Both the position numbers and the translations under genes were made by a program. A DNA stretch of 64,000 bases from Haploplasma axanthum (GTDB lineage: Bacteria > Bacillota_I > Bacilli_A > Acholeplasmatales > Acholeplasmataceae): the NCBI RefSeq assembly GCF_900660745.1, contig NZ_LR215048.1, forward strand, positions 1,798,001-1,862,000, given 5' to 3'. This document shows positions 23,876 through 30,376 of this stretch, piece after piece. How positions within the stretch are numbered: position 1 is the stretch's first letter; each line of letters begins with the position of its first letter. The notes beneath the pieces are model-generated. The model was not told the origin of the DNA, ran no database searches, and was given only the letters and a program-made list of their open reading frames with translations.

Positions 23876-24541
23876 CTAAAATAATGGTGTTGATTTATGA
23901 TTTCCACTTACAATAAATATAATCCATTCACAAATATTAACAGCATGATCTCCAATTCTTTCAATATATTTAGCTACCATTAATAGATATACTGATAAAT
24001 CAGGATCGATTGTTTCTTCTTTTAATTCTTTAACGATTCTTTTAATAATTTTTTGGAATAATTTATCCACTTCATCATCAACAGCAATAACTTTATTTGC
24101 TAATTCGATATTAGTCTTAAATAATGCTTCAACACTGTCTAAAACCATTTTTTTAGCAATCTCAGCCATTTTAACTGTTGTAGGAATTACACGTTCACTT
24201 TTAAGATTAGCAGTATTAATTGTAATCTCTGCTATATCAATAGCATGATCTCCAATTCTTTCTAAATCTGTAATTAATTTTAAAATACCTGTTACTAATC
24301 TAAGGTCACCTGCAAGTGGTTGTTCCTTCCAAATTATTTTTAATGCTCTTTTAGATATTTCTTCTTCATATCGATCAACAACATCATCTCGCAAAATAAT
24401 TTCTTTTGCTAAGTCAATGTTATTATCTGCAAATGCTTTAATACTATCATTAATATTTTTAATAACCGTATTAGCCATCTCAATTACTTCTTTTTTTAAT
24501 TCATCTACTGCTTCTTGTAGTCCTCTTCTTAGTGCTGTCAT
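23876..24541 (-). CDS. phoU: Phosphate transport regulator PhoU
   Basis: 221 residues forming two homologous three-helix PhoU repeats. ERIGDHAIDIAE (about 96) and ERIGDHAVNICEW (about 197) carry the metal-binding E-x-x-x-D-H motifs. GGAGGT precedes the ATG. PhoU links the PstSCAB transporter to the PhoR kinase and prevents toxic phosphate over-uptake. It lies between pstB and phoP in one operon. Confidence 0.95.
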   Translation of the reverse strand: MTALRRGLQEAVDELKKEVIEMANTVIKNINDSIKAFADNNIDLAKEIILRDDVVDRYEEEISKRALKIIWKEQPLAGDLRLVTGILKLITDLERIGDHAIDIAEITINTANLKSERVIPTTVKMAEIAKKMVLDSVEALFKTNIELANKVIAVDDEVDKLFQKIIKRIVKELKEETIDPDLSVYLLMVAKYIERIGDHAVNICEWIIFIVSGNHKSTPLF

Positions 24542-24564: not shown

Positions 24565-25320
24565 TTAACCAAAGCGTCCAGTAATATAACTTTCAGTTTG
24601 TTCTTTTTTAGGATTCGAAAAGATAACTGATGTTTCATCAAACTCAATCAACTCTCCTAATAAGAAAAATGCTGTTTTATCTGAAATCCTTGCTGCCTGT
24701 TGCATATTATGAGTAACGATAATAATTGTATAATCTTTTTTCAAATCATTAATTAAATCTTCTATCTTTTGCGTAGCAATTGGATCCAATGCACTAGTTG
24801 GTTCATCCATAAGAATAACTTCTGGATTCATAGCAAGTGTTCTTGCTATACAAAGTCTTTGTTGCTGACCACCTGAAAGCTTCATTGCTGATTCATGTGT
24901 ACGATCACTAACTTCTTCCCATAATGCGGCTTGTTTTAACGCTTTTTCAACAATTTCTGTTAATACTTTCTTATTTTTAATTCCTTGTCTTCTAGGTCCA
25001 TAAGCAACATTGTCAAAAATGCTCATTGGAAAAGGATTTGGTTTTTGAAATACCATTCCAACTTTAGTTCTTAAACTTATTACATCAAACTTTTTGTCGT
25101 AAATATCATCATCATGATATTTAATTAATCCTTCAATTCTAGCATCTTCAATTAAATCATTCATTCTATTCAAACTTCTTAAAAAACTTGATTTACCACA
25201 ACCTGAAGGTCCAATAAATGCTGTTACTTCTTTTTCTTTAATTTCCATATTAATATTAATTAATGCTTGTTTATTTCCATAATATAGATTCATATTCTCA
25301 ATTATAAATGTTTTTTTCAT
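24565..25320 (-). CDS. pstB: Phosphate ABC transporter ATP-binding protein
   Basis: 251 residues. Walker [10 protein letters not shown] (about 37), PstB-specific [13 protein letters not shown]-loop [16 protein letters not shown], signature LSGGQQQRL, Walker [14 protein letters not shown] and switch His in VTHNMQQA. It energises high-affinity phosphate import by PstA and PstC. It starts after the pstA stop with a six-base gap. Confidence 0.97.
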
Positions 25321-25326
25321 TTTTGA

Positions 25327-26538
25327 CTACCCCCTGAATTTTTTCTCTAATCTGCTTGAGATTAGTTTTACAAGTAGATTTAATACTAATACCATTGCAA
25401 GGATAATAATTGCAATACTTGCTGCTACTTCAACATTCGGCGTTTCTTTGTTCATTACTGACCAAATATGTACTGCTAATGATGTTCCTTTACCACTTAT
25501 CTTTATATTATCATTAATTACTGTTCCTATCGCATAAATTAATGCTGCTGATTCACCAATTACTCTTCCTATTGTTAAAAGTGCTGCTGATAAGATACCA
25601 GGTAATGCATTTGGAAGAATTACTTTAAAGGTTGTTTGTATTTCATTTGCTCCAAGAGCAAGTGATGCTAATTTATAATCTTTTGGAACAACATCTAATG
25701 CTGATTCGGTTGCTTTAATAACAACCGGCAACACCATAATTGATAATGTTAAAGCTCCAGATAAAATATTACCACCTATCTCATTTGTTGAAATAATTTG
25801 TTTTGAAACAGGGATTAATAATGCAGCACCCAACAATCCATAAATAATTGATGGAATCCCTGTTAACATATCAATAAATGATCTTAAGATATTAATGAAT
25901 TTACCTCTAGGTGCAATTTCATGTAAATATACTGCTGTTAAGATACCGATTGGTAATCCTATTGCTAGTGTCAAAATAACAAGATAAAACGTTGTAACAA
26001 TTGATCCTCTAATTCCTCCACCTTCATTTGATAATGACCAACTATTAATTATTCTTGCTTGATCAAGTTTTGTTGCAACATTAACAGCTCCTTCTCTTGC
26101 AAAAATATAATCAGTACTCCCAATATCATTAGTAAAATCAATATATGTTGTAAAATAGAAACCTTGATTAACAGATGTTTTTTCCCCATTCTCAACTAAC
26201 AACATTTCTTTAAGTGGAGAATTAGGATCAATATAGATAATTTCTATTATAACTTCTTTTGAAATATTAACTGAATCCTTAAAAGCAATCCCATAACGAT
26301 TTGAGAAAAATTCATAATTACCTTTATTCTCAAATTTTTTATCATAATTATTCTCATTAGATTTCACAATATAACTTTCTTCTTTATTATCACTAGTTAT
26401 AAATTTCCAACTAAGATTTTTACTTCCTTTTGAAAAAATAAAGAAAATAATTGCAAATAATATCACAACAGAAATTGCTGATGCTAAATATGTAATTACT
26501 TGTAGTATTCCATCATACACTTTTCTTTTAGTTTTCAT
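25327..26538 (-). CDS. pstA: Phosphate ABC transporter permease PstA with an enlarged external loop
   Basis: 403 residues against about 280-300 for usual PstA. TM1 is at about 14-36. Residues about 40-165 form an extracytoplasmic insertion of mixed strands with no Cys, ending at SNEGGGIRGS. The conserved permease core then follows with the EAA-type loop ASLALGANEIQTTFKVILPNALPG (about 290-313). The core is clearly PstA. The extra domain might contact the double PstS lipoprotein encoded in the same operon (inference). It overlaps pstC by 11 bases. Confidence 0.92.
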   Translation of the reverse strand: MKTKRKVYDGILQVITYLASAISVVILFAIIFFIFSKGSKNLSWKFITSDNKEESYIVKSNENNYDKKFENKGNYEFFSNRYGIAFKDSVNISKEVIIEIIYIDPNSPLKEMLLVENGEKTSVNQGFYFTTYIDFTNDIGSTDYIFAREGAVNVATKLDQARIINSWSLSNEGGGIRGSIVTTFYLVILTLAIGLPIGILTAVYLHEIAPRGKFINILRSFIDMLTGIPSIIYGLLGAALLIPVSKQIISTNEIGGNILSGALTLSIMVLPVVIKATESALDVVPKDYKLASLALGANEIQTTFKVILPNALPGILSAALLTIGRVIGESAALIYAIGTVINDNIKISGKGTSLAVHIWSVMNKETPNVEVAASIAIIILAMVLVLNLLVKLISSRLEKKFRG

Positions 26539-27451
26539 ATTTACTACTTATCCTCTTTCTTACATAATTTAAAATAAAGTTTACTAATAAAATGATTGTT
26601 ATTAAAACTAAACCAATTGAAAATCTTATATCATAGTCTAATCCTTCAGTTTCTTTAAATCCCATTAAGATTGTTGAAGTTAATGTTCTTGTTGGATCAA
26701 AGAGTGAAAAACTAGGACCACTTGGAATGTTACCAGCAACTAAAGAAATAGCAGTTGCCTCTCCTAAAGCACGACCTACCCCTAAGATAATTCCAGCAAA
26801 AATCCCTGGAACAGCAGCTTTTAATGTGATATTAAACATTGTTTGGGTTTTACTTGTTCCAAGAGCGAGTGAACCTTCTTCAATATTACTTGGAACGGAT
26901 TTAATTGCTGTAATAGATAACATTGTTATTGTTGGTAATATCATCATTGTTAAAACAATCACACTCGATAATACCGATAACCCACCAGCAGTTGATATTC
27001 CAAACTTATCAGCAATGTTTTTAACTAAAACTGTAATATATCCTGAACCAAAAACCCCAAAGATAATTGAGGGAATTGCTGCTAAAACTTCAACGACTGT
27101 TGTTAATGTTTTACCTATTACTTTAGGTGCTATTTTAGCGATAAAAAGGGCTGTTAACACACTAATTGGAACACTAATTAATACTGATAAAAAAACAACA
27201 TACAACGTATTTATAATTATAAATCCTATTTGATAGTTTGTTTGACTATAACTAGTTCCTCTTATAAATTTTAAAAAATCAACTCTATTATCACCATATA
27301 CATTAGTAAATGGTCTAATACCATGACTTGCGATTTGCCAAATAATTAAAATGATTATAGAAGCGGATAAAACAGTCGCGAGTAATAAGATACTCTTGAC
27401 TGTTATATTCATTATTTTATTTATTTTTACATTTTTACTTTCAACGTTCAT
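26528..27451 (-). CDS. pstC: Phosphate ABC transporter permease PstC
   Basis: 307 residues with six membrane segments. The EAA motif is EEGSLALGTSKTQTMFNITLKAAVPGI region (about 195-220), followed by GRALGEATAISLVAGN. The residue order matches PstC. With PstA it forms the phosphate channel. Its ATG overlaps the pstS stop (ATGA), indicating coupled translation. Confidence 0.95.
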   Translation of the reverse strand: MNVESKNVKINKIMNITVKSILLLATVLSASIIILIIWQIASHGIRPFTNVYGDNRVDFLKFIRGTSYSQTNYQIGFIIINTLYVVFLSVLISVPISVLTALFIAKIAPKVIGKTLTTVVEVLAAIPSIIFGVFGSGYITVLVKNIADKFGISTAGGLSVLSSVIVLTMMILPTITMLSITAIKSVPSNIEEGSLALGTSKTQTMFNITLKAAVPGIFAGIILGVGRALGEATAISLVAGNIPSGPSFSLFDPTRTLTSTILMGFKETEGLDYDIRFSIGLVLITIILLVNFILNYVRKRISSKYEN

Positions 27452-29223
27452 CTAATAACCTCTAACCAATTTTTTAATTCGCCTTGATAAATTTGTTTTA
27501 ATACTTGGCTAGTAATATTATCTAATGGATTTTTCACATTTACTGCTGCAACTACTGCATCCCATGCTAATTGTCCAAATGTACCTTCAACTCCCGCTTC
27601 TGTGTCTTTAAAGGCACGTGAGGCAAATCCAATATGTAATGCCGAATCACTATCTTTTCCACTACCTTGAGTATTCTTATAAGCATCGCCTGAACCACTA
27701 TGACTATGTTCTGCTTTAAAGTTACCTGCTTTAGCACTAAAGTCTTTACTTAATTCTTTAGCTATTGATTCAACTGATGTTGATCCACCAAAGATTACTG
27801 TTACATCTTTATTATCTTTGTTTGCAACAGGGTATTCTGATTTAATACTTTCCCATGTTGGTGCCGCAGGATTAACATCAATTATTCCACCTTTTGATTT
27901 AATAATTAATTCTGCATCTTTTGTTCCCATATATGCTACAAATGCTTTTGCTAATTTATCTGCATCTGTTACATCATTACTTGTAACAATATACATGAAT
28001 GGTCTTTTAAGTCCATATGTGTTATTTAATACGTTTGCTTCATTAGCTTCTACACCATTGAATTTTAAACCTTTTAGTCCAGATGTTGCTAAACTTGTTA
28101 ATGAAATATAGCCAATACCTTTATCATCATTTTTAAGTTTAGTAATCATATCACCATTACCATCAGTAATTAAAACACCTTTAACTAGTATTTCATCATC
28201 TTTAATTGCATCTGCAAAATCAATTGCTGTAAAGAATGCGTCTCTTGTTCCTGATGCTGTATCTCTTGTATAAACTTTAACTTCACCATTAAATACTTCT
28301 TTTTCAACTACATCAGCCCATTTTGCTGTATCACCTTTATAAACTTCTTTAGCTTGTTCTGGAGTAATTGAATTTAATTTGTTTTTTGAATTAACAACAA
28401 TAACTACTGCGTCAAATGCTAATTGACCAAAAGTTCCAACAGCCCCTGCTTCATCTGCTTTAAATCCACGTGAAGCAAATCCAATGTGTAATGCTGAATC
28501 GCCATCTTTTCCACTACCTTGAGTATTCTTATAAGCATCACCTGAACCTGTATGTTTATGTTCTGCTTTAAAGTTACCAGCTTTTGAACTAAAATCTTTA
28601 CTTAATTCTTTAGCTATTGATTCAACTGATGTTGATCCACCAAAGATTACTGTTACATCTTTATTATCTTTGTTTGCAACTGTATGTTGTGATTTAATAC
28701 TTTCCCATGTTGGTGCATTTGCATCTACTTCAATAATTCCACCTTTTGATTTAATAATTGTTTCTGCATCTTTCGTTCCCATATAAGCAACGAATGCTTT
28801 TGCTAATTTGTCAGCATCTGTTGTATCATTACTTGTAACAATGTAATTAAAAGGTCTTTTCAGTGCATATGATCCATTTAAGACATTTTGTTCTGTAGCT
28901 TCAACACCGTTAAATTTCAAGCCTTTTAATTCTGATGTTGCTAAACTTGTTAATGAAATATAACCAATACCATTTTCATCATTTTTGATTTTTGAAATCA
29001 TATCGCCATTACCATCAACAATTAAAACACCATTAACTAATTTTTGATCATCTTTGATTGCATCTGTAAAATCAATTGCTGTGAAGAATGCATCTCTTGT
29101 TCCTGATGCTGTATCTCTTGTATAAACTGTTATTTTATCATCTTTAGGGCTATTATCATTTGTACATGCCACTAAAGTAACTCCCAATAATACTGTAAAT
29201 AAAATCGCAAATATTTTTCTCAT
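27448..29223 (-). CDS. pstS: Phosphate-binding lipoprotein: permuted tandem fusion of two PstS copies
   Basis: 591 residues with a lipobox (LVAC, Cys20). A usual PstS has the order N-half (GGSTSV...AKEL, G-x-G-x-G, IGFASR, FDAVVIVVN) then C-half (TRDTASGTRDAF, GIGYISL). Here the order is C-half (31-187), N-half (188-311), C-half (313-468), N-half (469-591), so the protein begins and ends in the middle of PstS. One complete unit lies in the centre; a second could be completed by the terminal halves. The period is 284 residues and the copies are highly similar. Phosphate-contact motifs (STS, SGTRD) are intact in both. It heads the pst-pho operon downstream of a PhoP box. Confidence 0.9.
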   Translation of the reverse strand: MRKIFAILFTVLLGVTLVACTNDNSPKDDKITVYTRDTASGTRDAFFTAIDFTDAIKDDQKLVNGVLIVDGNGDMISKIKNDENGIGYISLTSLATSELKGLKFNGVEATEQNVLNGSYALKRPFNYIVTSNDTTDADKLAKAFVAYMGTKDAETIIKSKGGIIEVDANAPTWESIKSQHTVANKDNKDVTVIFGGSTSVESIAKELSKDFSSKAGNFKAEHKHTGSGDAYKNTQGSGKDGDSALHIGFASRGFKADEAGAVGTFGQLAFDAVVIVVNSKNKLNSITPEQAKEVYKGDTAKWADVVEKEVFNGEVKVYTRDTASGTRDAFFTAIDFADAIKDDEILVKGVLITDGNGDMITKLKNDDKGIGYISLTSLATSGLKGLKFNGVEANEANVLNNTYGLKRPFMYIVTSNDVTDADKLAKAFVAYMGTKDAELIIKSKGGIIDVNPAAPTWESIKSEYPVANKDNKDVTVIFGGSTSVESIAKELSKDFSAKAGNFKAEHSHSGSGDAYKNTQGSGKDSDSALHIGFASRAFKDTEAGVEGTFGQLAWDAVVAAVNVKNPLDNITSQVLKQIYQGELKNWLEVIR

Positions 29224-29374: not shown

Positions 29375-30376
29375 TTATTTACTGTTTTTATTTTCATTCT
29401 TTTTTAAATCATTTATATGTTTTTCAACAAATCGTACTGCTTCATCAAATGATTTAACATCAATTTGTTTTACTCCTAATAATTCCCAATAACTAACTTT
29501 GTTATCATCATATCCAAATGATGGCCATGAAGATAACATTTCTTCAATTATGAAGAATATTCCTTCATGTTCATATGGTTTAATTCGATATATTGATTCT
29601 TCATCATAATAGAATGTTGGATCATTATATTTTTCTTTATTATTTTCATAATATGCTTGAATATATTCATAGTTCTTCTTCATATCAGTATTTGCATTAG
29701 TATCAATATCATTAAATCTTAGTTTATAAAAATCAGCATGTCTTACTGCAAAAGCAATTTTTTCAGAATCACCAACTATTTTATATGCAATTAAAAATTT
29801 GAATGTTTTTCCTTTAACATAAATAATTTCATCACTTTCATATTCTCGATTATCAATACTTAAAATAATTCTTTTATCAATAACTTCGTAATTATTATTA
29901 TCAAGAATATTAACTCCATTTAAGTAGTACTCATCACCAACTAATACTCCTAGATATCTTTTAGTAATTTTGTTATTAAAGTTTTTATCATCTCTGAATA
30001 AACTTTTATATAAAACTATAAAACCAGAAAGTACTAAAAGGTATACAACACCAATAATAATAACAAAGTAGTTTTTCAATAATACTCCTGAAACTATTAT
30101 TCCTAAACTTAATAATAAAACAATACTTATAATTGTATATCTAAAACCTTTTTTAGCTACTAATTCTAAAATAGATCTATTTTTAATTTTCAAGAAGTAT
30201 TGAACTAATGATGCAATACCAATAATAACAAATAAAGGAACCATTGAAAATCCCATAACAAGATTATCAGTTTTAGTTCTTGAATTCTTATCAGATACTA
30301 TAAGTACTAAAATAATTATTGCAAGGATTATATATAGTATTCCTGTATATAGGAATGTTTTAATTTTTCTTTTCAT
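29375..30376 (-). CDS. Membrane protein of unknown function
   Basis: 333 residues. Four hydrophobic helices lie in the first 135 residues (about 8-28, 40-62, 78-98, 103-125), followed by a hydrophilic, mostly beta then alpha, probably cytoplasmic domain (about 135-333) with no cofactor or catalytic motif I can identify. The end contains a helix-rich segment WELLGVKQIDVKSFDEAVRF. It has its own terminator and a 74-base gap (with another terminator) from the ABC exporter genes. No function is proposed. Confidence 0.75.
   Translation of the reverse strand: MKRKIKTFLYTGILYIILAIIILVLIVSDKNSRTKTDNLVMGFSMVPLFVIIGIASLVQYFLKIKNRSILELVAKKGFRYTIISIVLLLSLGIIVSGVLLKNYFVIIIGVVYLLVLSGFIVLYKSLFRDDKNFNNKITKRYLGVLVGDEYYLNGVNILDNNNYEVIDKRIILSIDNREYESDEIIYVKGKTFKFLIAYKIVGDSEKIAFAVRHADFYKLRFNDIDTNANTDMKKNYEYIQAYYENNKEKYNDPTFYYDEESIYRIKPYEHEGIFFIIEEMLSSWPSFGYDDNKVSYWELLGVKQIDVKSFDEAVRFVEKHINDLKKNENKNSK

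Follow-up and report, generated by a model that had tools for sequence, protein, structure and literature searches.

In the 64,000-nucleotide stretch of Haploplasma axanthum DNA analyzed here (the window), the lipoprotein predicted to bind phosphate for the Pst importer probably consists of two PstS copies, joined head to tail and permuted before they were duplicated, each of which closes on itself with its C-terminal half preceding its N-terminal half. The gene, pstS (27448–29223, minus strand, as are all features below), is one unbroken open reading frame encoding a 591-residue lipoprotein in which two circularly permuted units stand in tandem, and it heads the operon pstS-pstC-pstA-pstB-phoU.

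Profiles for the two halves of PstS read C-N-C-N after the lipoprotein signal, with the SGTRD-bearing half first. Their matches extend over C(33–166)-N(189–305)-C(317–449)-N(473–589), in a numbering that runs two residues ahead because the open frame begins two codons upstream of the ATG. Counted from the ATG, the signal peptide read from the sequence comprises residues 1–19 (29167–29223), with the lipobox LVAC and Cys 20. The C half of unit 1 (residues 31–166; 28726–29133) carries the phosphate-contact motif RDTASGTRDAF and is followed by a C-to-N linker (APTWESIK..DNKD; 28660–28725) that connects the former C terminus with the former N terminus. The N half of unit 1 (residues 189–305; 28309–28659) contains the motifs GGSTS, HTGSGDA and GFASR. 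A tandem junction, VEKEVFNGE (residues 306–314; 28282–28308), then leads from N1 to the C half of unit 2 (residues 315–449; 27877–28281), which passes through a second linker (APTWESIKSEYPVANKDNKD; 27808–27876) into the N half of unit 2 (residues 473–591; 27451–27807), where the chain ends. The coordinates, the 284-residue period and the C-N-C-N order given in a preliminary description of this DNA all agree with these open reading frame, repeat and half-profile analyses.

The claim of a tandem duplication made there is likewise borne out by a direct repeat of 852 nt (284 codons), whose units are 79% identical in protein (219/277) and 82.6% identical in DNA. The units are under purifying selection, with an inter-unit pS of 0.34, a pN of 0.13 and a dN/dS of 0.32, and the ratio stays below 1 in both the C half (0.23) and the N half (0.42). 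PF12849 (PBP_like_2) matches the protein with 138.7 bits against a cut-off of 27 (E = 4e-40), in three stretches of which the central N-C is the best, and in a whole-genome profile search the only matches to this family in the 1.88-Mb, one-contig genome lie within the pstS frame. When aligned with 4Q8R/4GD5, both units possess the phosphate-contact motifs GSTS, GSG/GSS, ASR and RxxxSGTR, a conservation consistent with the two potential phosphate sites proposed earlier. Lacking the single-domain N-C order of canonical PstS, the protein is a permuted variant and not a canonical PF12849 member.

Relatives were sought in the order, class and phylum, the phylum search spanning the same class, and their half order was read from the portion of the C-N-C-N query that they matched. 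Canonical PstS match approximately residues 185–450 of the query, whereas permuted PstS match 1–306 or 309–589; both half-profiles were also run on all collected loci to assign the order. The permuted order recurs as a single C-N protein at 125 non-identical loci, nearly all adjoining pst genes, and this is the commonest state of PstS in the order and the class. Named members include Acholeplasma granularum, Paracholeplasma vituli, Peloplasma, Izemoplasma and Anaeroplasma. There are also seven C-N-C-N tandems including that of the window, one C-N-C-N-C-N triple in an Acholeplasmataceae MAG (L042, also L075), one second permutation in the same genus as the window (L022), and 18 N-C loci, of which one (L182) is unconvincing as PstS. 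Because the relatives are mostly single permuted proteins, the shift of the start predates the duplication, and, as judged from the sequences, the window gene arose by duplication of a PstS that had already been permuted. The opposite order of events, in which duplication preceded loss or shift of the start, had been suggested initially and does not hold.

Some loci depart from these patterns. In one genome (G210, L162), two neighboring separate genes each encode a permuted C-N PstS, and two IMG/VR contigs classed as viral (L143, L144) carry permuted PstS-like genes without pst neighbors. The tandem of another genome (G018; L005/L188) is broken by a frameshift near its start into frames of 123 and 497 residues, reflecting either a sequencing error or a pseudogene.

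This split gene, and the general susceptibility of repeats in MAGs to misjoining, could be taken to mean that the window tandem is an artefact of assembly or annotation. We rejected this reading and assign it a negligible probability, as the window units differ at 17% of bases within a one-contig genome. Moreover, the units of the other arrays differ by 2–19% in DNA, and the same permuted order is found in the singles of many independent genomes, named isolates included.

The fold of a single permuted unit was predicted by AlphaFold2 for A. granularum (L090) with high confidence (pLDDT 96.1, pTM 0.90). Among solved structures, only that of Streptococcus pneumoniae PstS (4H1X) matches this model over its full length in the same chain order, with 252 collinear residues, a Z score of 29.9, an r.m.s.d. 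of 2.4 Å and a Foldseek E value of 1e-23. The A. granularum unit thus has the C-N fold of 4H1X and aligns with it end to end, whereas the canonical structures 4GD5, 4Q8R and 1TWY align over only 128–130 residues, or one half, with Z scores of ~10. A phmmer search concurs, giving one collinear stretch with 4H1X and two swapped stretches with canonical PstS. Since 4H1X matches the permuted unit from end to end and canonical structures match only a half of it, pneumococcal PstS is permuted in the same sense, in a structure already deposited; a search of open-licence papers found no description of its permuted order. Monoglobus pectinilyticus and Treponema saccharophilum also encode similar permuted PstS within pst operons, annotated there as nothing more than a substrate-binding domain-containing protein. 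In the tree, permuted PstS of the Clostridia, Treponema and 4H1X type are mixed with canonical rows, but the AU test does not reject a single origin of the permutation (p = 0.234), so that an independent origin of this type is no more than a possibility. Profile-based annotation undervalues the permuted form: NCBIfam TIGR02136 gives a single permuted unit 108 bits against a cut-off of 206.6 bits.

How the four halves pair in the tandem can be approached through the segments that join them. The C-to-N linker is mostly 22–24 residues long, contains a Trp in 191 of 207 cases and sits within the confidently predicted region of the L090 model. The spacers between the C-N units of the triple array are rich in Glu and Pro and measure 25 and 30 residues from Trp to Arg, which fits C-N as the structural unit. 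Pairing as (C1N1)(C2N2) is the simpler solution because lone C-N units exist and are predicted to fold, and because the linker is conserved. AlphaFold2 prediction of the whole window tandem, for which only a 3-row alignment was used, gave a pLDDT of 42.6 and a pTM of 0.25, and the model was discarded because so shallow an alignment did not suffice; a 56-row tandem alignment was set aside, as every single in it aligned to unit 1 only.

Alternatively, N1 and C2 at the center could fold together as a canonical PstS domain, leaving C1 and N2 at the two ends to pair as a second site in a ring. The N1-to-C2 junction of the window spans 18 residues from Trp to the Arg of RDTASGTR, a length that recurs in four other tandems (L002, L003, L004 and L005), and a central domain would also be suited because this is near the 15 residues of the canonical loop. 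TIGR02136, which has the canonical order, gives the window protein 251.6 bits with its best match over residues 177–444. We nevertheless regard the ring as improbable. Most relatives have lone C-N units that fold confidently in prediction, the C-to-N linkers stay conserved even though in a ring they would have to bridge two domains, and the junctions in other arrays reach 22 to 30 residues. The halves at the center of the chain do run N then C, as noted in the preliminary description, but they need not be the complete unit that it saw there, since lone C-N units exist and are predicted to fold. The most probable arrangement is two self-contained permuted domains in succession, which would provide two phosphate sites.

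Downstream of pstS, the permease gene pstC (26528–27451; BPD_transp_1) overlaps the pstS stop and is followed by the genes for the permease PstA (25327–26538; 403 residues), the ATPase PstB (24565–25320) and PhoU (23876–24541). The permease domain of PstA begins only at residue 194 and is preceded by ~120 extra residues, for which no Pfam match was found. A long PstA (median 402 residues) is a mark of the permuted clade; PstA has ~270–290 residues in canonical operons and in permuted operons of the Clostridia type. The insert is possibly a docking element for PstS. Upstream of pstS, a gene at 29375–30376 encodes a predicted membrane protein of 333 residues without a Pfam match.

On whether the tandems stem from one old array or from repeated duplication, the units themselves point both ways. 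Whole-unit trees pair the units within each genome, which fits repeated duplication. By eye, the ends of the unit-1 N halves of three tandems (L002, L003 and L005) are closer to each other than to their own unit 2, which fits an older tandem whose units were kept alike by gene conversion. A scheme of many independent duplications was withdrawn, as these ends near the junction point to shared tandems that evolved in concert. Taken further, the tandem could be the ancestral state of the permuted clade, with most C-N singles being recombination collapses and gene conversion homogenizing the units that remain. In keeping with this, one single (L113) sits within a tandem clade in the PstA tree, and synonymous divergence is uneven over the length of the window repeat, with pS ranging from 0.12 to 0.53. 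However, grouping of units within genomes would also result from independent duplications, and singles are far commoner than tandems and occur in all deep permuted branches. An ancestral tandem therefore seems rather unlikely to us, though less so than the ring.

Within the same clade, the chain has been cut again. For the PstS trees, units were rotated to one order, their halves were aligned separately, and a mixture model was used for tree building. Three N-C genes (L145, L146 and L147) fall within the permuted clade of their own family, and a topology that moves them to the remaining N-C genes is rejected (ΔlnL = 82, AU p = 0.0003). The tree of the neighboring gene pstA, on which the permutation of PstS has no bearing, agrees on their nesting among permuted genes (AU p = 1e-9), and their operons carry the long PstA of the permuted clade, with 397–401 residues against the usual 270–290. 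Their C-terminal tails are 25–26 residues long (APSWDSILEANPKFKEIC), compared with 2–10 in canonical PstS, and resemble the C-to-N linker of permuted proteins (L142: ATKWSDILKKAENTDVKEIC). At the internal junction, two of the three have F-D-T-S-K, a motif that belongs to the N-terminal linker of permuted PstS: 63 of the 125 permuted singles have F[DN] 11 residues ahead of the Arg, vs 0 of 16 canonical genes. These three PstS have returned to the N-C order while retaining sequence of the permuted form at both old junctions.

A second, different permutation is found in a full pst operon (L022/L180, genome G001). Its PstS opens with the C-terminal helix, stops after LKRPFMFVTRY and has an N-to-C loop of 15 residues, as long as the canonical one. 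The PstS tree places it with A. granularum (98/98), and the PstA tree with A. granularum and the window (100/98). In both trees, the window falls among single and re-permuted relatives; single, tandem, triple, second permutation and N-C reversion coexist in one clade. We think it likely that the group has gone through a full cycle, from N-C to C-N to C-N-C-N and on to a second permutation or to N-C again, leaving scars at the junctions.

A history of the following kind would account for the window gene. Long before the duplication, an ancestral N-C PstS is likely to have been permuted, its old termini, neighbors in lobe I, becoming joined by the linker and the chain opening anew in lobe II, immediately ahead of the strand that runs into the SGTRD loop. 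Along the window lineage, the permuted unit would then have been duplicated in frame to give C1-N1-C2-N2, with each C-N pair most likely forming one bilobed phosphate-binding domain. One lipid-anchored chain would thereby offer two phosphate sites to a single PstCAB permease, delivering its ligand to PstCA. Such a tandem plausibly feeds re-cutting, and its trimming elsewhere in the chain would be the simplest path both to the second permutation in G001 and to the N-C return in the three relatives.

Permutation by duplication is a textbook model, but its intermediates and reversals are rarely found side by side. In these closely related genomes, a single essential-type importer protein displays all of the states with its scars readable, an unusually clear record of how a protein is re-cut during evolution. 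The system allows experiments on the effects of permutation and copy number in the binding protein of an ABC importer, the features at stake being the presumed two phosphate sites per lipid anchor and the shift of the anchor from lobe I to lobe II.

In fold, operon and motifs, the window protein is a PstS, and the permuted topology has a solved but unremarked example. A search of open-licence papers returned no account of a permuted PstS or of PstS permutation in Acholeplasma, in line with the preliminary remark that the arrangement was not known; as far as this literature reaches, permuted PstS as the rule of a group, the tandem, the triple, the second cut and the return to N-C are new. Canonical PstS (Clostridium perfringens PBP-1, 4Q8R/4GD5; TIGR02136) shares the fold halves, phosphate motifs and operon, but is a single N-C unit and matches the permuted model in just one half. 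Pneumococcal PstS (SP_2084, 4H1X) resembles the window units in placing the C half before the N half, but is a single unit and ~24% identical. Among the binding lipoproteins of ABC importers, natural circular permutation has been reported for Treponema pallidum MglB-2 (Tp0684), proposed as a Type Ic ligand-binding protein; it has a Type I sugar-binding fold, a different cut and a single unit, and the consulted part of that report describes neither re-permutation nor a tandem (PMC4990184). The window PstS, in contrast, gave only PstS-type (type II) matches. In GlnPQ, two tandem substrate-binding domains serve one ABC importer, but they are unpermuted, fused to the permease and bind amino acids (PMC8025302). 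Permutation by duplication, with a tandem duplicate as intermediate, is the standard model for saposin/swaposin and DNA methyltransferases (PMC3320104); unlike in those cases, the tandem, the single, the second permutation and the return of PstS coexist in one bacterial family.
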